Source: Thermanaerovibrio acidaminovorans DSM 6589 (GTDB lineage Bacteria; Synergistota; Synergistia; Synergistales; Synergistaceae). From it: DNA of 64,000 nt. Below are positions 26,238-47,900 of this stretch, piece by piece. The stretch is taken from contig NC_013522.1 of assembly GCF_000024905.1 (NCBI RefSeq), forward strand, positions 434,001 to 498,000, in the 5' to 3' direction. Each line of letters opens with the position of its first letter. The first letter of the stretch is position 1. Below the pieces are notes generated by a model, which saw nothing but the letters and a program-made list of their open reading frames with translations, had not been told where the DNA came from and made no database searches. The translations under genes were made by a program, and so were the position numbers.

Positions 26238-28805
26238 ATGTACGTGTTCAAGGTCAACGGAGTGGAGCATCAGGAGGAGCGGGACAGGAACCTCTTGGAG
26301 TATCTGAGGAAGGAGCTTCAGATAACCTCCGCCAAGGAGGGCTGCGGCGAGGGGGCCTGCGGAACCTGCATGGTGTTGGTGGACGGGAAGAAGCACCGGG
26401 CGTGCCTCCTCAAGCTCTCCCAGCTGGACGGCAAGGAGGTAATCACCGTGGAGGGCCTGTCCGAGCGGGAGAAGCAGGTCTATACCTGGGCCTTCGCCAG
26501 CACCGGGGCGGTCCAGTGCGGCTTCTGCATCCCCGGCATGGTGATAAGCGCCAAGGCCCTGCTGGATCAGAACCTGAACCCCACCAGGAAGGATATCAAG
26601 GAGGCCATAAGGGGCAACATATGCCGCTGCACCGGCTACGTTAAGATCGAGGACGCCATCGAGAAGGCCGCCTGGGCCTTCCGGGAGAACTACGTGCCGG
26701 TGGAGGAGGACAGGGCCTGGAAGGTTGGTGAGGCCATGCCCCGGGTTGACGCCAAGGACAAGGTGCTGGGGGTGGCCAAGTTCGTGGACGACCTGTCCCT
26801 GCCGGGCATGCTCTACGGGGCGGTGCTCCGCTCTCCGGTCCCCCGGGGGCTGGTGAAGAAGATCGACGTCTCCGAGGCCAAGGCCATGGAAGGGGTCGAG
26901 GCGGTCATAACCTGGAGAGACATCCCGGGCAAGAGGATCGTGGGACACCTGGTACAGGACTGGCCGGTCCTGGTGGCGGAGGGGGAGGAGACCCGCTATG
27001 TGGGGGATGCCCTGGCGCTGGTGGCCGCCCGGGACGTGCACATCGCCCGGGAGGCGGTGAAGCGCATAAAGGTGGATATAGAGGAGCTCAAGCCCCTGCT
27101 TACCCCCGAGGAGGCCCTGGCCCCTGATGCGCCTAAGATCCATCCCTGGGGCAACAAGGTGGAGGTCAAGACCCACGTGAAGCGGGGCGACGTGGACGAG
27201 GCGCTGGCCAAGTCCGCCCACGTGGTGACCCGGGTCTACAAGACCCAGCGGGTGGACCACGCCTTCATGGAGCCCGAGTCCGCCCTGGCGGAGGTGGTGG
27301 ACGACGGGATAGTGGTATACACCGGCGGCCAGGGGGTCTACGACGAGAACCGGCAGATAAGCGCCATGCTGGGCATCCCCGCTGAAAAGGTGCGCTGCAT
27401 CACCGCCATGGTAGGTGGCGGTTTCGGCGGCAAGGAGGACATGTCGGTGCAGCATCATGCGGCCCTGATGGCGTGGATCACCAAGAAGCCCGTTAAGCTC
27501 ACCTGGACCAGGGAGGAGAGCCTCAGGGTCCATCCCAAGCGGCACCCCATGACCATCGAGATAACCTCCGGCTGCGACGAGGAGGGACGCCTAACCGCCC
27601 ACAGGATCCGCATAACTTCCGATACCGGGGCCTACTCGTCCCTGGGCGGTCCGGTCCTTCAGAGGGCTTGCACCCACGCGGGCGGTCCCTACAAGGTGCC
27701 CAACATAGACATAGAGGGAGTTGGGGTTTACACCAACAACCCCCCCTGCGGCGCCTTCCGGGGCTTCGGGGTGACCCAGTCCGCCTTCGCGGTGGAGGGC
27801 AACCTCAACCTTCTGGCGGAGAAGGTGGGCATTTCTTACTGGGAGATTCGCTGGCGGAACGCCATAGAGCCCGGGGACGTGATGAGCAATGGCCAGATCG
27901 CTGGTCCCGATGTGCGTTTGAAAGAGACGCTGATGGCCGCCAAGGAGGCCTTCGAGTCAAGCCCCTACGCGGGGATAGCCTGCGGCATGAAGAACAGCGG
28001 CCTGGGCGTGGGGGTTCCCGACGTGTCCCGGGTTAGGCTGGAGGTCCGCAACGGGGTGGTCCACATCTACACCAGCGCGGCCTGCATGGGGCAGGGCATA
28101 GCCACCATGACCACCCAGATAGTTAGCCACGTGACCGGGCTTCCGGTCTCGAAGATCAAGCACATGCCGGCGGACACCAAGCTGACCCCCGACGCGGGGA
28201 CCAGCACCGCATCCCGTCAGACGGTCTTCACCGGTGAGGCCACCAGGAGGTGCGCGGAGCTCCTGAGGCAGGATCTATTGGATGCGGGTTCCCTGGAGGC
28301 CCTGGAGGGGAAGGACTATTACCAGGAGTTCGATTTCAAGAGTGATCCCATGGGGTCCGACAAGCCCAATCCGGTGAGCCACATAGCCTATGGCTACGCC
28401 ACCCACGTGGTGATCCTTAACCAGGAGGGCAAGCTGGAGAGGTACGTGGCCTGTCACGATTCGGGGCAGCCTATAAACATCAAGTCCATGGAGGGCCAGA
28501 TCGAGGGCGGCGTAGTGATGGGAATGGGATACGCCCTCACCGAGGAGTTCCCCACCCCCGGAGGCTACCCGGTGAAGAAGTACGGCACCCTGGGGCTCTG
28601 GAGGGCCACCGACGTGCCCCCCATAGAGGTGAAGCTGTGCTATGCCAAGGGCGGGGATGTGGTTTTCGGCGCTAAGGGTGTCGGGGAGATCTCCCTGGTC
28701 CCTCCCGCTCCGGCCATAGCCCTGGCCTACAAGCGGTTCGACGGGGTTGAGAGGACCGAGCTGCCCCTGGTTGGAACTCCCTACGATAAGAGGAAGCAGG
28801 CTTAA
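26238..28805 (+). CDS. xdhD: XdhD-type molybdenum hydroxylase: fused [2Fe-2S] and molybdopterin domains
   Basis: An 855-residue fusion. Residues 1-150 are the double [2Fe-2S] domain (CGEGACGTCMVLVDG, CGFCIPGM, NICRCTGYV). The rest is the Mo-binding large subunit, with VGGGFGGKEDMS, CGAFRGFGVTQ and GAKGVGEISLVPPAP (catalytic Glu). The same order of domains is found in E. coli XdhD, a member of the urate gene cluster. It needs a separate FAD partner, possibly the protein at 31140 or the subunit at 3761. Reductive dehydroxylation of urate to xanthine or the reverse is a reasonable inference. Confidence 0.9.
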   Translation: MYVFKVNGVEHQEERDRNLLEYLRKELQITSAKEGCGEGACGTCMVLVDGKKHRACLLKLSQLDGKEVITVEGLSEREKQVYTWAFASTGAVQCGFCIPGMVISAKALLDQNLNPTRKDIKEAIRGNICRCTGYVKIEDAIEKAAWAFRENYVPVEEDRAWKVGEAMPRVDAKDKVLGVAKFVDDLSLPGMLYGAVLRSPVPRGLVKKIDVSEAKAMEGVEAVITWRDIPGKRIVGHLVQDWPVLVAEGEETRYVGDALALVAARDVHIAREAVKRIKVDIEELKPLLTPEEALAPDAPKIHPWGNKVEVKTHVKRGDVDEALAKSAHVVTRVYKTQRVDHAFMEPESALAEVVDDGIVVYTGGQGVYDENRQISAMLGIPAEKVRCITAMVGGGFGGKEDMSVQHHAALMAWITKKPVKLTWTREESLRVHPKRHPMTIEITSGCDEEGRLTAHRIRITSDTGAYSSLGGPVLQRACTHAGGPYKVPNIDIEGVGVYTNNPPCGAFRGFGVTQSAFAVEGNLNLLAEKVGISYWEIRWRNAIEPGDVMSNGQIAGPDVRLKETLMAAKEAFESSPYAGIACGMKNSGLGVGVPDVSRVRLEVRNGVVHIYTSAACMGQGIATMTTQIVSHVTGLPVSKIKHMPADTKLTPDAGTSTASRQTVFTGEATRRCAELLRQDLLDAGSLEALEGKDYYQEFDFKSDPMGSDKPNPVSHIAYGYATHVVILNQEGKLERYVACHDSGQPINIKSMEGQIEGGVVMGMGYALTEEFPTPGGYPVKKYGTLGLWRATDVPPIEVKLCYAKGGDVVFGAKGVGEISLVPPAPAIALAYKRFDGVERTELPLVGTPYDKRKQA

Positions 28806-28809
28806 GGAG

Positions 28810-28835
28810 GGGGCCCGGGGAACCTCCCGGGCCCC
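28810..28835. repeat. Perfect intercistronic hairpin between hydroxylase genes
   Basis: GGGGCCCGGG and CCCGGGCCCC (10-bp arms, 6-base loop) begin 5 bases after the xdhD stop. There is no T-tract, so a role in mRNA processing or differential stability between the two Mo-subunit genes is more likely than termination. Confidence 0.55.
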
Positions 28836-28865
28836 ATATGAGCACCTTCGGGAGGGGATCTTGAG

Positions 28866-31127
28866 ATGAAGTGCAAGGTTGTTGGGACCTCGGTACCGCG
28901 GAAGGATGGCATCGAGAAGGCCACCGGGAAGGCTCCGTTCGTGGCGGACATGCGGGTGCCCGGCTGCTGGGAGGGGGCGGTGATAGGCTCCCCGGTGCCT
29001 CACGGGATACTCAAGGGCTTTGAGAAGGACCCGTCATTCGACTGGTCGAAGGTGGTGTTCCTCACCGCCAAGGACCTGAAGGGGAAGAATTTCGTCCACA
29101 TGATCCGGGACGACTTCCCCATCCTGGCCGAGGAGCGGATCACCTACGCCACCCAGGGGCTGGCTTTGGTGGCCGCCCCGGACGAGGAGACCCTGAAGGG
29201 GGCCCTCAAGGCGGTGAAGCCCATAATAGAGCCCCTCACCCCGGTGCTCTCCATCGAGGACTCCCTGACCAAGGTGGCGGTCATCTGGGGGGAGGACAAC
29301 ATCCTGGACGAGTACCGGATCGACCGGGGGGACCTGGAGAAGGGCTTCGCCGAGGCGGACCTGATCGTGGAGGGCACCTATCGGACCGGTCTCCACGAGC
29401 ACGTTTACCTGGAGACCCAGGGCATGATGGCCATTCCCAAGGAGGACGGCACCCTGGAGGTGGTGGGCTCCATGCAGTGCCCCTACTACGTGCACGGTGC
29501 CCTGGTCCAGTCCCTGGGCTGGGAGCCCGAGAGGGTAAGGGTGCGCCAGGCTGCCACCGGCGGTGGCTTTGGCGGCAAGGAGGACTTCCCCTCCGCCATA
29601 GCCCTGTGGGTGGCCAACCTGTCCCTGGCCAGTGGCAAGCCGGTGAGGCTCATCTACGACAGGTCCGATGACCTGAAGGGCACCCCCAAGCGGCACCCCT
29701 CCAGGACCAGGATCAAGGCGGGGGTCAAGAAGGACGGGACCCTGACGGCCCTTCAGATAGAGTTCATCCTGGACGGCGGGGCCTTCACCACCATGAGCCG
29801 GGTGGTTCTCCAGCGGGGAACCCTGCACGCTCACGGGTGTTATCGGGTGCCCAACGTGTCCATCCACTCCATGGCGGTGGCCACCAACATGGTCCCCAGC
29901 GGGGCCTATCGAGGTTTCGGTGCTCCCCAGTCCCTGTTTGCAATCGAGAGGCACATGGACAAGATAGCGGACTTGTTGGGCATGGACCCCCTTGATGTGA
30001 GGCTCAAGAACGTGCTCAAGGCCGGGGACTACATGCCCTGCGGCCAGGAGCTCAAGTTGCCGGTCTTCGCCGAGGATGTGCTCCTCAAGGCAGCGGAGCT
30101 GTCGGACTACCGGCGCAAGAGGGCGGAGTACGCCAAGGGGACCGGTCGGGTGCGCAGGGGAATTGGGATCAGCTTGGCCATGCACGGCGGGGGCTTCACC
30201 GGGGCTGGGGAGACCAACATGGGCACGATGGTCAAGATCGACTTCGACGGGGAGCGGTTCAACGTCCACGCCAGCAGCACCGACATGGGTCAGGGCATAG
30301 CCACCGTTCACCCCATGATCGCCGCCGAGGCCCTGCACGTGCCCTACGATGTGGTGTTCAGCCCCAGGCCGGACACCAGCGTTACCCCCAACAGCGGCCC
30401 CACCGTGGCGTCCAGGAGCACCATGTACGTTGGTCGGGTGGTCCAGGAGGCGGCAAAGAACGTCATCGCCGAGCTGGGGGATTTCCTGAAGGCCAAACAC
30501 GGCCAGGCCACCTTCTCCGATGGCTTCTTTGAGACCCCCAACGGAAGGTTCTCCGTCCTGGAGGCCGCCAAGGCCTGCTTCGGCGAGAGGGGAGAGTTCA
30601 AGGTGCTGGGCACCCTGCCGCCGGGCTGCACCGGCGAGTGGGATCAGGATGCCTTCCGGGGAGAGGCCTACAAGGACTACTCCTGGATCGCCCAGGCCAT
30701 AGAGGTGGAGGTGGACACGGACACCTTCGAGGTCCAGCCGGTTAAGGCTACCGTGGTGGCGGAGATAGGCAAGGCGGTGCACCCGGTCCTGGTGGAGGGG
30801 CAGGTTCATGGCGGGCTCCTTCAGGCCATAGGCTGGAGCCACATAGAGGACATGACCCTCACTTCCGAGGGGCACATATCGGCGGAGCACCTGAACGCCT
30901 ATCTGATCCCCACCACCATCGACACCCCAGAGTGGAACGTCGAGATTTTGGAGCCCGCCACCTGTCAAGTGGGTCCCCATGGTGCCAAGGGCCTTGGGGA
31001 GTTGCCCATGGATGGAGGGGCTCCTGCCTTCGTGGCGGCGGTCCAAAGCGCGGTTGGGGTGTTCGGTACCGAGGTGCCGCTGACCGGGGAGAAGCTTTTC
31101 AAGCTCCTTGAGGAGAAGGGCTGCTAG
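28866..31127 (+). CDS. Molybdenum hydroxylase molybdopterin-binding subunit, second set
   Basis: A 753-residue large subunit without a [2Fe-2S] domain. Signatures are TGGGFGGKEDFPSA, SGAYRGFGAPQSL, TDMGQGIATVHP and the catalytic Glu in GAKGLGELPMDGG. ATG 28866 follows GGGAGGGGATC. The next gene supplies both [2Fe-2S] and FAD domains, so these two can form a complete heterodimeric enzyme like the XdhA/XdhB organisation of Rhodobacter. The substrate is a purine or related N-heterocycle by context. Confidence 0.9.
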   Translation: MKCKVVGTSVPRKDGIEKATGKAPFVADMRVPGCWEGAVIGSPVPHGILKGFEKDPSFDWSKVVFLTAKDLKGKNFVHMIRDDFPILAEERITYATQGLALVAAPDEETLKGALKAVKPIIEPLTPVLSIEDSLTKVAVIWGEDNILDEYRIDRGDLEKGFAEADLIVEGTYRTGLHEHVYLETQGMMAIPKEDGTLEVVGSMQCPYYVHGALVQSLGWEPERVRVRQAATGGGFGGKEDFPSAIALWVANLSLASGKPVRLIYDRSDDLKGTPKRHPSRTRIKAGVKKDGTLTALQIEFILDGGAFTTMSRVVLQRGTLHAHGCYRVPNVSIHSMAVATNMVPSGAYRGFGAPQSLFAIERHMDKIADLLGMDPLDVRLKNVLKAGDYMPCGQELKLPVFAEDVLLKAAELSDYRRKRAEYAKGTGRVRRGIGISLAMHGGGFTGAGETNMGTMVKIDFDGERFNVHASSTDMGQGIATVHPMIAAEALHVPYDVVFSPRPDTSVTPNSGPTVASRSTMYVGRVVQEAAKNVIAELGDFLKAKHGQATFSDGFFETPNGRFSVLEAAKACFGERGEFKVLGTLPPGCTGEWDQDAFRGEAYKDYSWIAQAIEVEVDTDTFEVQPVKATVVAEIGKAVHPVLVEGQVHGGLLQAIGWSHIEDMTLTSEGHISAEHLNAYLIPTTIDTPEWNVEILEPATCQVGPHGAKGLGELPMDGGAPAFVAAVQSAVGVFGTEVPLTGEKLFKLLEEKGC

Positions 31128-39526: not shown

Positions 39527-40681
39527 TTGAAGGCCATTGTGAACGGACGGATATGGACCATGAGCGCCGGGGAGATACCCGGTGGAACCATCCTGTTGGA
39601 CCGGGGCAGGATCGTGGCGGTGGGGTCCTCGGTGGAGGTGCCCCCCGGGGCGGAGGTGATAGACGTCTCCGGTGCGGTGGTGACCCCGGGCTTCATCGAC
39701 GCCCACACCCACGCGGGCATATGCGAGGAGGGGGTCCCGGAGGATCCGGATCCGGTCAACGACGCCACCGATCCCATCACCATGGGCCTTCGGGCCCTGG
39801 ACGCCATAAACCCCTCCGACGAGGCGTTCCGCAACGCCCTATCGTCCGGGGTGACCTGCGTCAACGTGGTGCCCGGGAGCGCCAACGTGGTGGGGGGTAC
39901 CGGGGCGGTGGTGAAGACCTGGGGCTCCACCATGGAGGACATGCTGGTCCTGTCCCACTCGGGGATGAAGGCCGCCCTGGGGGAGAACCCCATGCGGGTT
40001 CACGGCAGGAAGGACCGGCTCCCGTCCACCCGGATGGGAAACGCTTATTGTCTCAGGAAGGCCCTGCAGGATGCGGTGGACTACCGGGAGCGCAAGAGGT
40101 CCGCGGCGGAGAAGGGGGAGCACTTTTCCCTGGACCTTGGGTTCGAGAACATGCTTCCCGTGTTGGAGGGGAGGGTTCCCTTGAGGGTCCACTGTCACCG
40201 GGCGGACGACATATGCACCGCCGTCCGGGTGTGTGAGGAGTTCAAGGTGCCCTTTACGTTGGAGCACGGCACCGAGGGGCACCTGGTGGTGGAGCTGCTG
40301 GCCTCCAAGGGGGTCAGCGTGGCGGTGGGGCCCACCCAGTCGTCCAAGAGCAAGATAGAGCTGAGGAACAAGGGGTGGGAGACCCTAGTGGCCTTCAGCC
40401 GGGCTGGGGTCCGGTTCTGCATGATAACCGACCACCCGGTGATCCCCATAGAGACGCTGCAGGTGGCGGTCTCCCTGGCGGTGAGGCACGGCCTTGAGCC
40501 CCTGGAGGCCCTTAGGGCGGTTACGATCCGGGCGGCGGAGCACCTGGGTCTTGCCCACCGGATGGGGTCCATCCAGGAGGGCAAGGACGGGGACCTGGTG
40601 GTTTGGGACGGGGACCCCACGGACGTGAGGGTGGCCCCCCGGATGGTCTTCGTGGAGGGTCGGTTGGTTTACGAAGCGTAA
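39527..40681 (+). CDS. Amidohydrolase (imidazolonepropionase-like)
   Basis: A 384-residue amidohydrolase-superfamily enzyme. TPGFIDAHTHAGI holds the first metal pair, EHGTEGHLV and ITDHPVIP later metal or catalytic positions, and GSIQEGKDGDLVVWDGDP is the usual C-terminal signature. TTG 39527 follows GGGAGGTG. The group is related to imidazolonepropionase and prolidase-like hydrolases; the substrate is unknown. It is monocistronic, after the nucleotidase and before the T-box leader. Confidence 0.85.
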   Translation: MKAIVNGRIWTMSAGEIPGGTILLDRGRIVAVGSSVEVPPGAEVIDVSGAVVTPGFIDAHTHAGICEEGVPEDPDPVNDATDPITMGLRALDAINPSDEAFRNALSSGVTCVNVVPGSANVVGGTGAVVKTWGSTMEDMLVLSHSGMKAALGENPMRVHGRKDRLPSTRMGNAYCLRKALQDAVDYRERKRSAAEKGEHFSLDLGFENMLPVLEGRVPLRVHCHRADDICTAVRVCEEFKVPFTLEHGTEGHLVVELLASKGVSVAVGPTQSSKSKIELRNKGWETLVAFSRAGVRFCMITDHPVIPIETLQVAVSLAVRHGLEPLEALRAVTIRAAEHLGLAHRMGSIQEGKDGDLVVWDGDPTDVRVAPRMVFVEGRLVYEA

Positions 40682-40744
40682 TTCAATGCGATAAGCAATA
40701 AACTAGAGTTTGTTTTGATCAACGGGCTTATGTAAACTGAAGTG

Positions 40745-40771
40745 AAAATGCAACCCGGTTAAGTGCATTTT
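40745..40771. promoter_or_regulatory. Inverted repeat AAAATGCA-N11-TGCATTTT upstream of the T-box promoter
   Basis: Perfect 8-bp arms with an 11-base spacer end 5 bases before the -35 box at 40777. It may be a protein-binding site or the transcription end of the upstream amidohydrolase gene. Confidence 0.4.
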
Positions 40772-40776
40772 GGGTG

Positions 40777-40805
40777 TTGACAGGACGGCCCCTCCGGTGT
40801 ATTCT
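40777..40805 (+). promoter_or_regulatory. Sigma70-type promoter for the lysine operon
   Basis: A perfect TTGACA -35, a 17-base spacer and TATTCT as -10. The start would be near 40812, about 45 bases before the T-box Stem I. Confidence 0.85.
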
Positions 40806-40854
40806 GCTTCTCAACAAGGGCTTCAGTGAACCTTGAGGGGTTTAGAAGCGGAAA

Positions 40855-41127
40855 GGCCATGATGCGGATGGCCGAGCGGGCAACCGAACCTTACAGAGAG
40901 TGACCTCCACCGGCTGAGAGGGGTCTGGGTTCGCCGCAAGGCCCAAGGTCCGCGGAGCCGGAGCGGAAAGGCCCGCCCCCTGATGGGCGGCGGGGCCGGA
41001 GTACGACTCCCGGGTGGGTCCCGTCACAGGCCCAGGAGAGGAACGGCTCCTGGTGAGCCGTTCAAGTTGGGTGGTACCGCGAGCTGTGGAGGCTCGTCCC
41101 TTCGGGGACGGGCCTCCTTTTTTTATC
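40855..41127 (+). ncRNA. T-box riboswitch leader of the lysW operon
   Basis: The T-box core GGGTGGTACCGCG (41069-41081) with its UGGU bulge for the tRNA 3' end is followed by an intrinsic terminator. Upstream, Stem I shows the AG bulge AGAGAG (40895-40900) and distal-loop GGCTGAGAGG. The lower helix pairs GCGGAT with GTCCGC. AAG triplets at 40938-40940 and 40945-40947 fall in the probable specifier region, matching tRNA-Lys and the lysine genes downstream. CGC nearby leaves an Arg reading possible. Uncharged tRNA would promote the antiterminator and operon expression. Confidence 0.88.
41088..41124 (+). terminator. T-box-controlled intrinsic terminator
   Basis: GGAGGCTCGTCCC pairs with GGGACGGGCCTCC (one internal mismatch) around a TTCG loop, then TTTTTTT. 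It overlaps the 3' side of the T-box antiterminator region, as expected for tRNA-dependent attenuation. Confidence 0.9.
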
Positions 41128-41149
41128 AAAAATGAGGAGGTCGATCGGT

Positions 41150-41317
41150 ATGAGCGGGGTGTGCGTGGTCTGTGAGGGTTCCGTGTCGGTGCCGGAGGGT
41201 TGCTGCGTGGGGGAGATCCTGGTCTGTCCCGACTGTGGGGTGGAGCTGGAGGTCCTCTCCCTGGAGCCTCTGGAGCTGGGGGAGGCTCCGGAGGTCCAGG
41301 AGGACTGGGGAGAGTAG
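41150..41317 (+). CDS. lysW: Amino-group carrier protein LysW
   Basis: A 55-residue acidic carrier protein. Four zinc-binding Cys occur as CVVC and CPDC, and the chain ends in EDWGE, whose C-terminal Glu gamma-carboxyl is ligated to the alpha-amino group of the substrate. Length and C-terminus match LysW of Thermus. ATG 41150 follows GAGGAGG; the 41132 start is too close to the terminator. First gene after the T-box, 2 bases before lysX. Confidence 0.95.
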   Translation: MSGVCVVCEGSVSVPEGCCVGEILVCPDCGVELEVLSLEPLELGEAPEVQEDWGE

Positions 41318-41319
41318 CG

Positions 41320-42150
41320 GTGGAGCTCCTGGTGATCTACACCCGGCTCAGGGTGGAGGAGAAGCTGCTCCACCAGCGGGCCCAGGAGCTGGGCGTACCC
41401 TCCCGGCTGGTGGACGCCACCCACTGGGTGCTGGGCGGGGACCTGGACGTGCCTTCCGGGGGGGTGGCCCTCTGCAGGGCCATATCCCACGGGCAGAACG
41501 AGACCATCGCCCGGTGCCTGGAGTCCCGGGGGATAAGGGTGTCGAACCCGCCAGAGGTGATGGCCCGGTGCGGGAACAAGATGCTTACCGCCCTGGCGCT
41601 GGACGCGGAGGGGATCCCCCAGCCTAGGTGGCGGGTGGCCCTCTCCCCCGAGGGGGCCATGGAGGCGGTGGGGGACCTGGGGTTCCCGGCGGTCCTCAAA
41701 CCCCTCTGCGGAAGCTGGGGAAGGCTTCTGGCCAAGGTGAACGACCGGGATGCGCTGGAGGCGGTGGTGGAGCACAAGCACCAGCTGGGGGTGAACCACC
41801 AGACCTACTTCATCCAGGAGTACGTGGAGAAGGGGGGCTTCGACGTTCGGGCCTTCGTGGTGGGTGGACGTCCCGTGGCGGCCATAAGGCGCAGTAGCCC
41901 CCACTGGATAACCAACACCGCCCGGGGAGGAGAGGCCTCCAACGTGCCGGTGGACGTGGAGATGTATCGTCTCCTGGAGGGGGTCCAGCGGGCCATCGGG
42001 GGGGACTTCCTGGCGGTGGACCTGTTCCGATCCGATCGCGGGTGGCTGGTCAATGAGGTCAACGACGGAGGGGAGTTCAAGAACTCCATAGGCCCCACCG
42101 GTGTGGACATACCGGGCCTCATAGTGAGGCACCTCTTGGATCTGAAATAG
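41320..42150 (+). CDS. lysX: LysW-aminoadipate (or glutamate) ligase LysX
   Basis: A 276-residue ATP-grasp ligase of the RimK/LysX family. ATP-grasp elements are GFPAVLKPLCGSWGRL, YFIQEYVEKGGFDVRAFVVG and GWLVNEVNDGGEFKNS. GTG 41320 starts 2 bases after the lysW stop, preceded by GGGGAGAG. It joins the alpha-amino group of alpha-aminoadipate (lysine route) or glutamate (ornithine route) to the C-terminal Glu of LysW. Substrate choice is not decided by sequence alone; the T-box triplets favour lysine. Confidence 0.93.
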   Translation: MELLVIYTRLRVEEKLLHQRAQELGVPSRLVDATHWVLGGDLDVPSGGVALCRAISHGQNETIARCLESRGIRVSNPPEVMARCGNKMLTALALDAEGIPQPRWRVALSPEGAMEAVGDLGFPAVLKPLCGSWGRLLAKVNDRDALEAVVEHKHQLGVNHQTYFIQEYVEKGGFDVRAFVVGGRPVAAIRRSSPHWITNTARGGEASNVPVDVEMYRLLEGVQRAIGGDFLAVDLFRSDRGWLVNEVNDGGEFKNSIGPTGVDIPGLIVRHLLDLK

Positions 42151-42162
42151 GAGGTAGTGACC

Positions 42163-42285
42163 ATGGATCTGGATAGGCTCAAGCGAAAGCCCTTCGGGGC
42201 GGATGGTTCTTTGGAGGCTAACGGGACGTTCGATATCGATTTCCAGATGGGCGGGGCTATGCGCCGGCCAGGGGGGTCCTCATGA
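42163..42285 (+). CDS. Small hypothetical ORF after lysX (40 aa)
   Basis: ATG 42163 follows AGGAGGTAGTGACC, a strong ribosome-binding site, 12 bases after lysX. It encodes a 40-residue polar peptide beginning MDLDRLKRKPFGADGSLEAN and ending MRRPGGSS. I do not recognise it. It lies directly before an internal terminator, so it may be a leader-type ORF whose translation affects terminator folding, or a small accessory protein. Confidence 0.5.
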   Translation: MDLDRLKRKPFGADGSLEANGTFDIDFQMGGAMRRPGGSS

Positions 42286-42314
42286 CCTTGAGGGCACCAT
42301 GGTTCCTTGCGCAG

Positions 42315-42340
42315 GCCCGCCCCGGAGGGGCGGGTTTTTT
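42315..42340 (+). terminator. Internal intrinsic terminator within the lysine operon
   Basis: CCCGCCCC pairs with GGGGCGGG around a 3-base loop (GGA), followed by TTTTTT. It separates lysW-lysX from the rest of the operon. An upstream GGGCGGG at 42249-42255 could pair with CCCGCCC of the 5' arm and prevent hairpin formation, which would make it a conditional attenuator. Confidence 0.8.
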
Positions 42341-42357
42341 CATTGGAGGTGTTTCGG

Positions 42358-42513
42358 TTGGTTATAGAGCTTTACGAGCGAGGGCGGCTGATCATTACCT
42401 TGGAGCTGACGGCTGATTTGGAGGACCCCCGGGAGGGAGTGGGCCGGGTCATTGAGGACGCCCCCACATTGGATGATCCGGGGCACCTGGGGAGGGATGG
42501 GGAATGGTGGTAG
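42358..42513 (+). CDS. Small hypothetical protein upstream of the citrate-synthase-like gene (51 aa)
   Basis: TTG 42358 follows GGAGGTG with correct spacing. The 51-residue product begins VIELYERGRLIITLELTADL-like and is acidic; no family is recognised. Its stop overlaps the start of the citrate-synthase-like gene by 10 bases, suggesting translational coupling. It may be a small partner of that enzyme or simply a coupling ORF. Confidence 0.5.
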   Translation: MVIELYERGRLIITLELTADLEDPREGVGRVIEDAPTLDDPGHLGRDGEWW

Positions 42514-43226
42514 CCTTGGCAACCCGGGTAGCTCCTGACCGCATAGAGATAGACGGGGAACCCATAGGGGAGTTCATCCGGCGGGGGGATCCGGCGGAGA
42601 TGTGGTTCAGGATGATCCAGGGCAGGACCCCCTCCCAGGAGGAGTCGGCGGTCTTTGGGGCCATCCTCTGTTCCATGGCGGACCACGGGGACACCCCGCC
42701 CAGCACCCAGGCGGCCCGGCTGGTGGCCTCGTCTGGGTCCCCCATGCAGTGTTCCCTGGCGGCGGCCCTCCTTGCCTTCGGGGATCATCACGCGGGGGCC
42801 ATCGAGAGGGCCATGGAGCTCTTCTCATCCTGCGTGAGGGACCGGGAGATCCCTTCGGTGGTGGCGGACCGTTTCATCTCCCGGGGACGTCGGGTGCCCG
42901 GGTTCGGGCACCGGGTTCACCGGGAGGACCCCAGGGTTCGCCCCCTGGTGGAGGTGGGATCCGCCCTGACGCACCGGCCACATCTGAGCTTCTTCCTGGG
43001 AGTGCAGGATCATCTCAGGTCCGCCAAGGGCATAGTGGGCAACGTGGACGGGGTTTGCGGGGCGCTGCTCCTTGACCTGGGCTTCCCCCCCTCGGCGGGC
43101 CGGGCGGTCTTCTTCTGCGGCCGTATACCGGGGCTCGTCTCCTGGATACTCCGGGAGGGGGAGCTGGGCCCCTTCAGGCCCTATAGGCTTGTCCCCTCCG
43201 AGGAGGTGGCGCCATGTATCGCGTAG
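42504..43226 (+). CDS. Compact citrate-synthase-fold enzyme (citryl-CoA lyase-like)
   Basis: A 240-residue protein, far shorter than citrate synthase (about 370-430) and close to citryl-CoA lyase-type domains. The three catalytic positions of the fold are visible: His in MADHGDTPPSTQAA, His in PGFGHRVHREDPR and Asp in GNVDGVCGALLLDLGFP. ATG 42504 follows GGGGAGGGATGGGG; the stop overlaps the lysY start. Placed inside the LysW operon it may condense acetyl-CoA with 2-oxoglutarate (homocitrate, lysine route) or oxaloacetate (citrate, glutamate supply), or cleave citryl-CoA. The usual homocitrate synthase is an unrelated HMGL-type enzyme, so this role is only a hypothesis. Confidence 0.8.
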   Translation: MVVALATRVAPDRIEIDGEPIGEFIRRGDPAEMWFRMIQGRTPSQEESAVFGAILCSMADHGDTPPSTQAARLVASSGSPMQCSLAAALLAFGDHHAGAIERAMELFSSCVRDREIPSVVADRFISRGRRVPGFGHRVHREDPRVRPLVEVGSALTHRPHLSFFLGVQDHLRSAKGIVGNVDGVCGALLLDLGFPPSAGRAVFFCGRIPGLVSWILREGELGPFRPYRLVPSEEVAPCIA

Positions 43227-44269
43227 CCATCATGGGGGCCTCCGGCCTGGCCGGGGGAGAGATACTAAGGATCCTGGCCAACCATGGGGGCTTCCGGGTC
43301 TCCCTGGTCACCTCCGCCTCGTCGACGGGCAGGCCGGTCAGGCAGGCCCATCCTCACCTGGCCTACGCCTACCGGGACCTCACCTTCTCCCCCGAGGAGG
43401 CGGTGTTGGAGGGTGAATGGGACCTGATCTTCCTTGCCCTTCCCCATCGCAAGAGCGCTCCCTGGATCCGGCGCCTGATGCCCCTCCTGGAGGGGGGGCG
43501 CAGGCTGGTGGATCTATCGGGGGACTTCCGGCTTAGGGACACCGAGGCCCACCGCCGCTGGTACGGGGAGGACCCGGCGGAGGACCTCCGGGGGGCCTTC
43601 GTCTACGGCCTGCCGGAGCTTCATCGGGAGGAGATTCGGTTCGCCTCCCTGGTGAGCGGCGTGGGGTGCAACGCCACCGCCGCCACCCTGGCGGCCCTCC
43701 CCCTGGTCCGATCGGGCCTCTCGGAGGCGGTCCTGCAGTGGTGGTTCGAGTGTAGGGTCGGATCCTCTGAGGGGGGGAGCGTCCCCAACGAGGGGGGGAT
43801 GCACGTTTTCCGGAGCCGGACCATGCGGGTGGTCTCCTGCTTCTCCCACCGGCACCTGGGGGAGGTGAGCCAGGAGCTCCGGATCCCCGAGGAAGCCATG
43901 TCCCTCACGGTCACCTCGGTGGAGATGGTCCGGGGGGTCCAGTGCCTTCTTAGCGCCCCCTTGAGGGAGCCCCTGACGGAGGGGGACCTCTGGCGGGCCC
44001 TGAGGTCCGCCTACGGGACGGAGCCCTTCGTGGACCTGTGCCCTCCCCGCCCGGGGCACATGAGGCTACCGGATCCCCGGCTGGTGCTGGGGAGCAACCG
44101 GGCCCTGGTGGGGTTCTCACTGAGCGACGACCGGCGGCGGCTCCTGGTGGGTTGCGCCATCGACAACCTGATGAAGGGGGCGGCGGGCACCGCGGTCCAG
44201 TGCGCCAACCTGATGTTCCGCCTGCCGGAGGAGCAGGGGCTCATAATGCCCCCCGCTTATCCCGCCTAG
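43214..44269 (+). CDS. lysY: LysW-aminoadipyl-phosphate (glutamyl-phosphate) reductase LysY
   Basis: A 351-residue ArgC/LysY-family dehydrogenase. The N-terminal Rossmann motif is GASGLAGGEILRIL. The catalytic Cys is in VSGVGCNATAATLAAL, and GCAIDNLMKGAAGTAVQCAN is the C-terminal family signature. It reduces the LysW-bound acyl phosphate to the semialdehyde with NADPH. ATG 43214 overlaps the end of the citrate-synthase-like gene by 13 bases. Confidence 0.93.
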   Translation: MYRVAIMGASGLAGGEILRILANHGGFRVSLVTSASSTGRPVRQAHPHLAYAYRDLTFSPEEAVLEGEWDLIFLALPHRKSAPWIRRLMPLLEGGRRLVDLSGDFRLRDTEAHRRWYGEDPAEDLRGAFVYGLPELHREEIRFASLVSGVGCNATAATLAALPLVRSGLSEAVLQWWFECRVGSSEGGSVPNEGGMHVFRSRTMRVVSCFSHRHLGEVSQELRIPEEAMSLTVTSVEMVRGVQCLLSAPLREPLTEGDLWRALRSAYGTEPFVDLCPPRPGHMRLPDPRLVLGSNRALVGFSLSDDRRRLLVGCAIDNLMKGAAGTAVQCANLMFRLPEEQGLIMPPAYPA

Positions 44270-44295
44270 GCGGATCCAATGGAGGTGTGAATCGG

Positions 44296-45114
44296 ATGCT
44301 TGGAGTGGTGAAGATAGGAGGGGCCCGGGGTAACCGGTATGACCACCTGGTACGGGAGCTTTCCGCCCGGGTCCTCAGGGGGGAGCGGTGGATCCTGGTG
44401 CACGGCGCCAGCGGAAGGATGGAGGAGCTCTGTGCCTCGAGGGGGGTGGAGGTCCGGATCGTGTGCAGCCCGTCGGGCTACACCAGCCGGTACGTGGGCC
44501 CGGTGGAGAGGGAGATCTTCGAGGAGGCGGCGTTCCACATGTCCCACCTGGTCTCCTCCATGCTGAGGTCAAGCGGGGTGGAGCCCGCCATAGTGACTCC
44601 CGCCGAGGGGGAGCGGAAGGATTGCCTCCGCTCCGTAGAGGGGGGGCGGGTCCGGATCCTCCGGGACAACTACAGCGGCCGGGTGACCCGGGTGGACCCC
44701 CAGCCCATTCGAAGGCTACTCGAGTTGTCCAAGGTGCCGGTGATACCCCCCCTGGCCATGTGTCAGGGGCTCTTCATAAACGTGGACGGGGACCGGCTGG
44801 CCGCCCAGGTGGCCGCCGCGGTGGGGGCCCAGGGGCTGGTGATCCTCTCCAACGTGCCGGGTCTCATGAGGGACCTGGAGGATCCTAACAGCGTCCTTCC
44901 CATGGCCAGCCTGGAGGAGTGGGACCTGGTGGAGTCCCTGGCGGCGGGGAACATGAAGCGCAAGGTCCTGGCGGCCCGGGAGGCCCTGGGGGCGGGGGTA
45001 CAGAGGGTGATCCTGGCGGATGGCCGCCTGGAGGAGCCCCTTGCGGGGGCGTTGGAGGGAAGGGGGACGGTGCTTTGCTCAGCTCCATGTACGGTAGCCG
45101 CGGCGTCCAGCTAG
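44296..45114 (+). CDS. lysZ: LysW-aminoadipate (glutamate) kinase LysZ
   Basis: A 272-residue amino-acid kinase of the NAGK/LysZ family. VVKIGGARGN is the phosphate-binding KIGG loop, ILVHGASGRMEEL the second glycine loop, and VILSNVPGLM and GNMKRKVLAAREAL the ATP-side motifs. ATG 44296 follows GGAGGTG; the long upstream extension of the frame lies in lysY and is not coding. It phosphorylates the side-chain carboxyl of the LysW-linked substrate. Confidence 0.93.
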   Translation: MLGVVKIGGARGNRYDHLVRELSARVLRGERWILVHGASGRMEELCASRGVEVRIVCSPSGYTSRYVGPVEREIFEEAAFHMSHLVSSMLRSSGVEPAIVTPAEGERKDCLRSVEGGRVRILRDNYSGRVTRVDPQPIRRLLELSKVPVIPPLAMCQGLFINVDGDRLAAQVAAAVGAQGLVILSNVPGLMRDLEDPNSVLPMASLEEWDLVESLAAGNMKRKVLAAREALGAGVQRVILADGRLEEPLAGALEGRGTVLCSAPCTVAAASS

Positions 45115-46190
45115 TCTCCGGAAGGCTCGGCCGGGTGGTGGACCGGGAGGGGCGGGAGTACGTGGACTGGTTCACCGCCCACGGGGCCGCCCTCTTCGGC
45201 CACCAGGACCCCCAGCTGGTCCAGGCCCTCAAGGGGGCGGCGGAGGGGCTTTGGACCGTGGGGGCCGGCTTCGATCATCCGAGCCGGAGGGCCCTGGAGG
45301 AGGAGGTGGAGAGGTGCCTGCCCGGGAGGCGGTTCTTCGTCTGCAACAGTGGGACCGAGGCGGTGGAGTGCGCCCTGAAGCTATGTATCGCCCTAAGGCC
45401 CGGCAGGACCCGATTGATAGCCGCCAGGAGGGCCTTCCACGGGAGGACCCTGGGGGCCCTCTCCCTCACCTTCAACCCAAAGTACAGGTCCAAGTTCGAC
45501 CCCTTCCTGTGTAGGGTGGAGCACCTTCCCCCGGAGCGGATACCGGAGGCCATAGATGACCGGGTGGCGGCGGTCTTCCTGGAGCCCGTCCAGGGGGAGG
45601 GGGGAGTTCACCCCCTGGACGCGGAGCTGGGCAGGCGGATCACCCGGGCCGCGGCGGAGCACCAAGCCATCCTGGTGGCCGACGAGGTCCAGACCGGCAT
45701 GGGACGCTGTGGTCGGATGATGGCCAGCCACCTGGTGGGACTTGAGCCCCAGGTGGTGTGCCTGGCCAAGGGGCTTGCGGGGGGCTTCCCATGCGGCATG
45801 GTCCTCTGGGACCGGGATCTGGGGGACTTCTCCCCGGGGCTACACGGCTCCACCTACGGGGGCAATCCCCTTGCCTGTTCGCTGGCTGCCCTGTCCATGG
45901 GGCGGATCCGCTCCGGGGAGCACCTGGAAGCGTGTCGGATCATGGAGGCCTTCCGGCGGGAGCTGGCGGGGGCTGGGTTGGACGTCCAGGTGAGGGGCCT
46001 TGGGACCATGACCGGTGTGGAGGTCCCGGTGGACTCCTCCGGGATCGTGAAGTCCCTCCAGTCCGCGGGGCTCCTGGCCCTCCAGGCGGGGCCCCGGGTG
46101 GTCCGGTTCCTCCCCTCCATAAAAGTCACCGGGGAGGACGCGGAGATGGCCCTGGACCTGTTCATCCGGTCCTTGAGGGGGGCGTCCTGA
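45075..46190 (+). CDS. lysJ: LysW-aminoadipate semialdehyde aminotransferase LysJ
   Basis: A 371-residue class-III PLP aminotransferase. CNSGTEAVECALKL binds the cofactor phosphate, LVADEVQTGMGRCG carries the PLP-pyridine Asp, and VCLAKGLAGGFPCG the Schiff-base Lys. TTG 45075 is preferred (AGGGGGACGG 8 bases upstream) and overlaps lysZ; ATG 45087 is the alternative. It converts the LysW-bound semialdehyde to the amine with glutamate as donor. Confidence 0.93.
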   Translation: MLSSMYGSRGVQLVSGRLGRVVDREGREYVDWFTAHGAALFGHQDPQLVQALKGAAEGLWTVGAGFDHPSRRALEEEVERCLPGRRFFVCNSGTEAVECALKLCIALRPGRTRLIAARRAFHGRTLGALSLTFNPKYRSKFDPFLCRVEHLPPERIPEAIDDRVAAVFLEPVQGEGGVHPLDAELGRRITRAAAEHQAILVADEVQTGMGRCGRMMASHLVGLEPQVVCLAKGLAGGFPCGMVLWDRDLGDFSPGLHGSTYGGNPLACSLAALSMGRIRSGEHLEACRIMEAFRRELAGAGLDVQVRGLGTMTGVEVPVDSSGIVKSLQSAGLLALQAGPRVVRFLPSIKVTGEDAEMALDLFIRSLRGAS

Positions 46191-47230
46191 TGGATCCCGT
46201 GTCCTTCCTCTCCGATCTGATCCGGGTTCCGAGCCCAAGCGGTGACGAGGGCCCGGCGGCGGAGGTCCTGGCGGAGGCGCTTCTGGGGCTGGGTTGGGAG
46301 AGGAGCTGGATCGATCCGGCGGGCAACGTGTTAGCCTCCCGGGGGGATGGGCTCAGCCGGGTGGCCCTCTTCGGGCACCTGGACACGGTGCCCGGCGGGC
46401 CGGAGCCGATGATCCGGGGTGACCAGGTCTGGGGCCGGGGCTCGGTGGACGCCAAGGGCCCCTTATGCGCCATGGCGGTGGCGGGATCCCGGGTGGAACT
46501 GCCCCCCGGGGTTGGGCTAGTCCTGGTGGCGGCGGTGGGGGAAGAGGTGGACTCCCGGGGGGCCCGTCACGCCCTGGCGTCCGGCCAACTGGAGGGGGTA
46601 AGGGGGGTGGTTGTGGGGGAGCCCACCGGGACCGACGGGGTTGCCCTCTCCTACCGGGGAAGGGTGCTCCTCAGGCTCAGCGACTCCGATGGGGGGGCCC
46701 ACAGGTCCTGCGACTCTGGGCCCCTCACCCGGGTGCTGATGGGGGCCTCCCGGGTGGTCTCCCACGTGTCCCATCTGGAGGGCTTCTCGTCCGCGGTGGT
46801 CCACATGGAGGGGGAGGAGTCCGGGGGCAGGTCCGCCCGGGTCACTTTGGACCTTAGGGTGCCGGTGGGGGCCTCCGCCCTCGCCCTGGCGGAGGAGCTG
46901 GTCCCCATGGCCTCCGGGGTTCGGGTGGAGCTCCTGGAGGTGGTGGAGCCCCACTCGGTGGGGGCCGGTGACCCGGTGGTCAGCTGCCTCAGGGGCTCCA
47001 TCCGGGGGGTGGGGCGCAACCCCCGGCTACTGGCCAAGCTGGGCACCTGCGACTTCAACGTGCTGGCCCCCCTTGGGGTCCCCATGGGGGTCTACGGCCC
47101 CGGGGACCCCAGGCTGGACCACTCGGACCAGGAGAGGCTGGACGTGGGGGATTACCTTAGGTCCATAGAGGTCCTGTCGGACGCCATCCCCCGGATCGTG
47201 TCTAGGGTCTGCAACCCCCAAGGAAGGTGA
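46190..47230 (+). CDS. lysK: LysW-lysine (ornithine) hydrolase LysK
   Basis: A 346-residue M20-family metallocarboxypeptidase that releases the finished amino acid from LysW. Metal and catalytic motifs are ALFGHLDTVPG, GRGSVDAKGPLCAM and VGEEVDSRGARH. The start ATG overlaps the lysJ stop by one base. It is the last gene of the operon; the 3' end overlaps the convergent ECF gene by 29 bases. Confidence 0.93.
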   Translation: MDPVSFLSDLIRVPSPSGDEGPAAEVLAEALLGLGWERSWIDPAGNVLASRGDGLSRVALFGHLDTVPGGPEPMIRGDQVWGRGSVDAKGPLCAMAVAGSRVELPPGVGLVLVAAVGEEVDSRGARHALASGQLEGVRGVVVGEPTGTDGVALSYRGRVLLRLSDSDGGAHRSCDSGPLTRVLMGASRVVSHVSHLEGFSSAVVHMEGEESGGRSARVTLDLRVPVGASALALAEELVPMASGVRVELLEVVEPHSVGAGDPVVSCLRGSIRGVGRNPRLLAKLGTCDFNVLAPLGVPMGVYGPGDPRLDHSDQERLDVGDYLRSIEVLSDAIPRIVSRVCNPQGR

Positions 47231-47756
47231 CCGTGGCCCCGCTAAGCCTTGCGATGAGCATCCGGCAGACCAGGGTGTAGGCGGGGATGGTGAAAGCGGC
47301 GGCGATGAACCGGGGGGGCATGGTGACCCCTATGGGCAGGGAGAACAGGTGCTGGATCAGCAAGGGCACAGTGACGCAGGATATGGCCAGGTGCGGCAGG
47401 GCGATGGAGATCCCCATGGTCCATAGTCCCCGCCGGTTCGATGGTATCAGGTGGTAGATGAGCCCCGGGAGAAGCCCCGACAGGGTGGAGGTGACGGTGA
47501 AGTGGGGCATGTAGGGCCCCATCGGGTTGACCCAGTAGCCCACCAGGTCCCCCAGGCCTCCGATCACCGCCCCCGCCAGGGGGCCCAGGTACAGGGAGCC
47601 GAAGACCACCGGCAACTGGCCGAAGCCTATCCGTATGCCCTCCACGGATCCTATGGCTATCCTAAGACTGGCCACCCGGGTCAGGACTATGTTCATGCCG
47701 ATGAGCAACCCCATGATGGCCACGTCCCGGGTGGAGAACCTCCTGGCTTCCTTCAA
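47202..47756 (-). CDS. ECF transporter substrate-binding (S) component, FolT-like
   Basis: A 184-residue protein with about six hydrophobic segments. RIGFGQLPVVFGSLYLGPLA followed by GAVIGGLGDLVGYWV and NPMGPYMPHFTVTS strongly resembles FolT-type folate S components. TTG 47756 follows GAGGAGGGATC. S components bind the vitamin and use shared EcfA-EcfT energising units encoded elsewhere; none is in the window. The vitamin is probably folate or a similar compound, with moderate certainty. Confidence 0.85.
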   Translation of the reverse strand: MKEARRFSTRDVAIMGLLIGMNIVLTRVASLRIAIGSVEGIRIGFGQLPVVFGSLYLGPLAGAVIGGLGDLVGYWVNPMGPYMPHFTVTSTLSGLLPGLIYHLIPSNRRGLWTMGISIALPHLAISCVTVPLLIQHLFSLPIGVTMPPRFIAAAFTIPAYTLVCRMLIARLSGATVTFLGGCRP

Positions 47757-47884
47757 TGTGGATCCCTCCTCGCGCTTTAGTACGTGAGAATTTACCACAG
47801 GGGACCGATCCGGTGAAGCCCCGCCTTTTTGTGCTATGATGTGTATTTTTTAGATTTCTATTGTATTTTTGGGATTTTCAAGGT

Positions 47885-47900
47885 TGCATCATGATATGCA
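47885..47900. promoter_or_regulatory. Palindrome TGCAT-N6-ATGCA upstream of phosphotransbutyrylase
   Basis: TGCAT CATGAT ATGCA has the same 5-6-5 spacing as the palindrome at 33956 near the Crp/Fnr gene. It sits in a 240-base AT-rich divergent region 100 bases before ptb. A TATAAT at 47938-47943 may be the -10 of the ptb promoter, though no good -35 lies at the right distance. Confidence 0.4.

Follow-up and report, generated by a model that had tools for sequence, protein, structure and literature searches.

The LysW-mediated aminoadipate pathway of Thermus and Sulfolobus is encoded by lysWXYZJK, with a carrier protein ending in EDWGE and a LysX carrying the FKNS motif. To our knowledge, every characterised homocitrate synthase is of the HMGL type (LysS, NifV and AksA; TIGR02146), which folds as a TIM barrel. 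The FKNS-type motif of LysX is specific for aminoadipate while FKGF marks the glutamate-specific ArgX (PMC10433800). The conversion of homocitrate to homoisocitrate requires two aconitase-family enzymes in fungi, and the homoaconitase of Thermus performs only the second half of it (PMC3556520).

Thermanaerovibrio acidaminovorans Su883T is a thermophilic amino-acid fermenter of the Synergistota that ferments lysine, arginine and citrate and for which activities of citrate lyase, 2-oxoglutarate dehydrogenase and glutamate dehydrogenase were reported (PMC3035242). Its genome is a single contig of 1,848,474 bp. The stretch analysed here (the window, 64,000 nucleotides, bases 434001-498000) harbors an operon with the complete lysWXYZJK set and the EDWGE carrier tail, and this operon thus belongs to the LysW-mediated lysine pathway; lysZ scores above its equivalog cut-off and several other operon genes score below theirs. 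Unlike the operons of Thermus and Sulfolobus, it contains an extra citrate-synthase-fold gene preceded by a small gene (the two together are called the cassette below) and is headed by a T-box, and the putative homoaconitase genes are not linked to it. A preliminary description had pointed out the compact citrate-synthase-fold reading frame with its His-His-Asp set, its overlap with lysY and its position among the LysW genes, and all of these observations hold. The 51-aa overlapping gene, the T-box leader and the attenuator-like stretch are additions to that inventory (Table 1).

Table 1. Features of the LysW operon of T. acidaminovorans, in window coordinates.
Feature	Position	Strand	Remarks
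Sigma-70-like promoter, TTGACA-17-TATTCT	40777..40805	+	Sole promoter-like site within 40600-47900
T-box leader	~40811..41121	+	5′ end placed from the promoter position; stem I with AAG (Lys) specifier, AG bulge/GNTG apical loop, antiterminator GGGUGGUACCGCG, terminator 41088-41117 followed by T7
lysW, amino-group carrier protein	41150..41317	+	C-terminus EDWGE; frame open from 41132, start placed from the ribosome-binding site
lysX, LysW-aminoadipate ligase	41314..42150	+	Aminoadipate-type motif EFKNS
Candidate K/R-rich leader peptide, MDLDRLKRKPFG...	42163..42285	+	Similar K/R-rich frames lie in the lysX-lysY gaps of most relatives
Terminator-like hairpin followed by a T run	42313..42337	+	Attenuator-like, between lysX and the cassette
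51-aa small gene	42358..42513	+	TTG start, Shine-Dalgarno GGAGGTG, C-terminus HLGRDGEWW; 10-bp overlap with next gene
Compact citrate-synthase-fold enzyme, 240 aa	42504..43226	+	Candidate homocitrate synthase
lysY, argC-like LysW-aminoadipyl phosphate reductase	43214..44269	+	13-bp overlap with citrate-synthase-fold gene
lysZ, [LysW]-aminoadipate kinase	44296..45114	+	NF010659 above cut-off
lysJ, aminotransferase	45087..46190	+	
lysK, carrier hydrolase	46190..47230	+	

The leader of the operon has the architecture of a T-box, including stem I with a codon and an adjacent purine, the AG bulge, the GNTG loop, the antiterminator and the terminator. The Rfam model RF00230 gives it 33.5 bits (E 7e-6), under the gathering score of 93, and gives 79.2 bits over the full model for the Thermovirga counterpart and 65.1 bits for the argG leader. 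In an alignment of ten leaders, in which the specifiers were read by eye, six LysW leaders have the codon AAG and that of Thermovirga has AAA; a purine and then the right-hand strand of lower stem I come next. The control leaders carry arginine codons, CGT upstream of argG in the same genome (L099 7240-7470, genome ~785.4 kb) and CGG in two carAB leaders. Lower stem I covaries among the ten leaders (GCGGA:UCCGC, GCGGG:CCCGC, ACAGG:CCUGU and GUGGG:CCCAU). Furthermore, the antiterminator base U of this LysW leader matches A73 of all three tRNA-Lys, and the corresponding C of the argG leader matches G73 of all five tRNA-Arg; an exception is the LysW leader of G174, which carries C at this base. 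The LysX motif EFKNS is that of T. thermophilus LysX, whereas StArgX of Sulfolobus has EFKGF. The specifier codon, the match to A73 and the motif of LysX agree on lysine; the reading as an arginine operon was therefore rejected, and from these sequence features the operon is taken to be lysine-controlled. A search with Rfam found no lysine riboswitch. The T-box does not mark the cassette, being present also in operons of other genera that have no cassette.

Synergistota operons with the NS-type LysX have long lysX-lysY gaps and mostly occur without a strong DapA, whereas those with the SS/GS-type have DapA and, except for G122, short gaps. Short K/R-rich reading frames (e.g., KRGKCKRIKR, RKRGLKRS and LKRKPFG) are also found in the lysX-lysY gaps of ten other loci, mostly preceding a T run or a terminator, and are candidates for leader-peptide attenuators within LysW operons. 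In G009 (L252), two LysX-type genes with the motifs HGS and NSS are found in one T-box-led LysW operon, possibly a split of the glutamate and aminoadipate ligases.

DapA was not found in the T. acidaminovorans genome. Nor was an HMGL-type homocitrate synthase, so that its absence, noticed in the preliminary description, holds genome-wide: the only HMGL proteins are one of the carboxylase type and LeuA, whose gene belongs to a leuACDB-ilv operon. Among 188 Synergistota genomes, no member of TIGR02146 scores above the cut-off. Because a lysine T-box and an aminoadipate-type LysX coincide with the lack of DapA and of an HMGL-type synthase, and with a HacAB cluster elsewhere in the genome (see below), the gene of the 240-aa protein is the strongest candidate for the homocitrate synthase that the genome otherwise lacks, an activity suggested by its operon and by the missing step. 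Most likely, the enzyme would form homocitrate by condensing 2-oxoglutarate with acetyl-CoA, standing in for the absent HMGL-type enzyme. It would be produced on lysine starvation through the T-box heading the operon, and its product would feed the aminoadipate-LysW pathway. We give just short of an even chance to the proposal that lysine-starved cells obtain the homocitrate for lysine synthesis from this enzyme, with the substrate assigned from context. The sequences show the operon membership, the lysine T-box, the aminoadipate-type LysX, the absence of DapA and of the HMGL-type synthase, the conservation of the active-site residues and the invariant coupling to the small gene.

The 240-aa protein matches Pfam Citrate_synt (PF00285) at 6.5e-34, with 118 bits against a gathering score of 27, and is thereby a member of the citrate synthase superfamily. 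Orthologues from Synergistales share 51-68% identity with it. His96, His136, Asp182, Arg144 and Arg207 are invariant in an alignment of 10 divergent sequences, and we take them by motif to be the counterparts of the residues with which citrate synthase binds oxaloacetate and performs catalysis. The His/His/Asp and arginine residues are shared with the Si-type citrate and 2-methylcitrate synthases of PF00285, but the 240-aa enzyme is ~120 residues shorter at its N-terminus and these synthases are more distant in the tree and in the fold search. It would catalyze the same reaction at the same place in the pathway as the HMGL-type homocitrate synthases, but its citrate-synthase fold is unrelated to theirs. 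The preliminary description called it independently evolved, which is apt in the sense that the folds differ and in no further sense.

The best NCBIfam families for the 240-aa protein are the PRK06224 citryl-CoA lyase subfamilies, all under cut-off (at best 195.4 against 245 bits), and the best PDB relative by phmmer is the citryl-CoA lyase of Hydrogenobacter thermophilus (6hxp, 2e-33). With the AlphaFold model (pLDDT 83) as a Foldseek query, 6hxp again comes first (TM 0.86), followed by ATP-citrate lyase modules and then by citrate synthases. The compact fold and all catalytic motifs are common to the 240-aa enzyme and 6hxp, but the former is only ~30% identical to the latter, is shorter, is encoded in a lysine operon and falls in a separate clade. 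The best-supported account is a condensing enzyme of the citrate synthase superfamily with the architecture of citryl-CoA lyase. Since citryl-CoA lyase has the identical catalytic set, the triad alone cannot tell which reaction is catalyzed, and this tempers the novel homocitrate synthase put forward in the preliminary description, for which the conserved neighborhood, the missing synthase and the lysine control speak. Specificity for 2-oxoglutarate is not readable from the sequence, and both the substrate (2-oxoglutarate as opposed to oxaloacetate) and the direction of the reaction are our inference. That the closest characterised relative uses citryl-CoA instead of 2-oxoglutarate counts against the homocitrate reading.

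The enzyme could be a lyase of citryl-CoA or another CoA-activated tricarboxylate recruited to the operon, as its best sequence and fold matches would have it. We consider this improbable, given the scores under every PRK06224 subfamily cut-off and the lack of a place for a lyase in a lysine-starvation operon. Citryl-CoA usually comes from relatives of SucC/SucD, and E. coli SucC and SucD gave no tblastn match in the genome at E 1e-3, i.e., no synthetase partner like that of citryl-CoA lyase was found with these queries; the genome encodes the citrate lyase CitEF in three copies. Two nearly identical citDEF copies are located at 26393-29138, beside the aconitase and isocitrate dehydrogenase genes, and at 363231-365976, beside a tricarboxylate transporter gene, and this pair is a recent duplication.

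The main rival is a citrate synthase, which would condense acetyl-CoA with oxaloacetate and supply 2-oxoglutarate and glutamate as the starter and the amino donor of the pathway. The oxaloacetate-binding residues are retained, E. coli GltA as query found the 240-aa protein as the only citrate-synthase homologue in the genome, and aconitase and an NADP-type isocitrate dehydrogenase are encoded. The genes for these two enzymes, however, form one cluster with citDEF at 22.9-29.1 kb, a layout suited to 2-oxoglutarate breakdown through citrate, and activities of citrate lyase and 2-oxoglutarate dehydrogenase have been measured (PMC3035242). Lysine-specific control also better suits a committed step of lysine synthesis, and we regard the citrate synthase as rather unlikely.

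The gene upstream overlaps the enzyme gene. An equivalent reading frame ends in H(L/I)GRDGEWW-stop at all eight Synergistales loci, the remainder varying in both length and sequence. A degenerate DNA pattern for this tail was matched at exactly these eight loci, once each, in 188 Synergistota genomes, with no control match; the tail precedes only this enzyme, and thus the small gene is not a general component of LysW operons. Six bases of the tail vary, five of them at third codon positions, and Leu/Ile is the sole amino-acid change, although the numbers are small. In G183, a silent change in the tail turns the ATG start of the enzyme into GTG. The Shine-Dalgarno core GGGAGG may account for part of the conservation, not for all, and the idea that the tail is kept solely as the ribosome-binding and start region of the enzyme was rejected on account of the third-position variation and the G183 start. 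The predicted structure of the small protein, of low confidence (pLDDT 71, pTM 0.31), begins with a beta-hairpin, which a disordered linker joins to the tail.

Most simply, the 51-aa protein would be a partner of the citrate-synthase-fold enzyme. In the most likely arrangement it would be obligatory for the enzyme and would dock on it through its invariant C-terminus, and the HLGRDGEWW tail may serve in docking or as a carrier, much as EDWGE does in LysW. The same tight, invariant coupling would also suit an enzyme whose catalysis has been lost or altered and which, paired with the small protein, acts as a metabolite sensor or as a regulator of the LysW enzymes. We judge this very improbable, as the catalytic and substrate residues are invariant over the 10 divergent sequences.

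At E 1e-5, 12 of the 188 Synergistota genomes have a match to the citrate-synthase-fold gene, and LysW scores above cut-off in 76. The preliminary description had suggested examining whether the neighborhood is conserved, and the placement between lysX and lysY is indeed kept in five genomes of three genera (G000, G174, G175, G124 and G019, the last counted as linked across a contig break separating lysX from the cassette), including three Thermanaerovibrio species and a second genus of the same family. A classical synthase set elsewhere together with no such conservation, which it had named as speaking against its reading, was thus not encountered. In three genomes (G024, G182 and G183) the cassette lies outside LysW operons, and LysW was not found in G183. 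The tree places linked and unlinked copies, interleaved, in a single clade with 85/92 support that excludes citryl-CoA lyase. A strong DapA is absent from all eight cassette genomes and present in 107 of 188 (P ~0.001 naive, ~0.015 by genus), and LysW occurs in seven of the eight (P 0.008), where the naive DapA value and the LysW value ignore kinship among genomes. Related proteins of Synergistota family f11 and of Methanobrevibacter are encoded in other gene clusters, which counts against the homocitrate reading. The Methanobrevibacter proteins, the nearest outside the phylum, are ~40% identical and encoded beside PrpD-like and fumarase-like genes; at three Methanobrevibacter loci these form a conserved cluster that also includes a gene for a TIM-barrel-like protein. 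In G023 (C8:536566-536802, L011), only a 78-residue piece of the gene was matched, possibly a product of decay. No viral relatives were found.

Most of the aminoadipate-type LysW operons examined in the phylum have no citrate-synthase-fold gene, and several of the cassette-less genomes also have no short HMGL enzyme, so that in those genomes the gap in the pathway is not closed by this gene. As both this gene and an obvious homocitrate synthase are missing in many such cases, another route to homocitrate or aminoadipate exists in Synergistota. This is the strongest objection to the homocitrate reading, beside the cassette standing alone in three genomes. For the same reasons, the preliminary description went too far in calling the enzyme dedicated to carrier-protein amino-acid synthesis.

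The middle of the pathway may be encoded at genome 1409663-1418660 (L130/L131). Candidates for homoaconitase and homoisocitrate dehydrogenase, which the preliminary description had advised looking for, are present there: the cluster comprises genes for a GntR regulator and an HD-domain protein, two LeuCD/HacAB-type pairs, an AksF-like dehydrogenase gene and citEF, and citD is added in most relatives' versions. Since two aconitase-family enzymes are needed, a cluster with two HacAB pairs could provide the central steps of the aminoadipate pathway, and HacAB/AksF could act as homoaconitase and homoisocitrate dehydrogenase. The arrangement of GntR, HD, HacAB1, HacAB2 and AksF-like genes is conserved in relatives, mostly with citDEF (L189-L198, L200 and L202). 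Or the cluster may instead be catabolic, in view of the GntR regulator, the citrate-lyase genes and its occurrence in genomes without LysW. It could run the aminoadipate route backwards, in lysine fermentation via homocitrate cleavage, or forwards.

The full proposal, that the 240-aa enzyme and the 51-aa HLGRDGEWW protein together form a homocitrate synthase of the citrate-synthase fold that takes over from the HMGL-type enzyme in lysine biosynthesis, is in our view doubtful. If a citrate-synthase-fold enzyme does perform this step, a non-orthologous substitute would stand at the entry to lysine synthesis, and one branch of the citryl-CoA-lyase-like family, which is poorly characterised, would gain a function. 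The 51-aa protein would represent a previously unrecognised small protein family, and the lysine T-box makes the homocitrate synthase idea directly testable.
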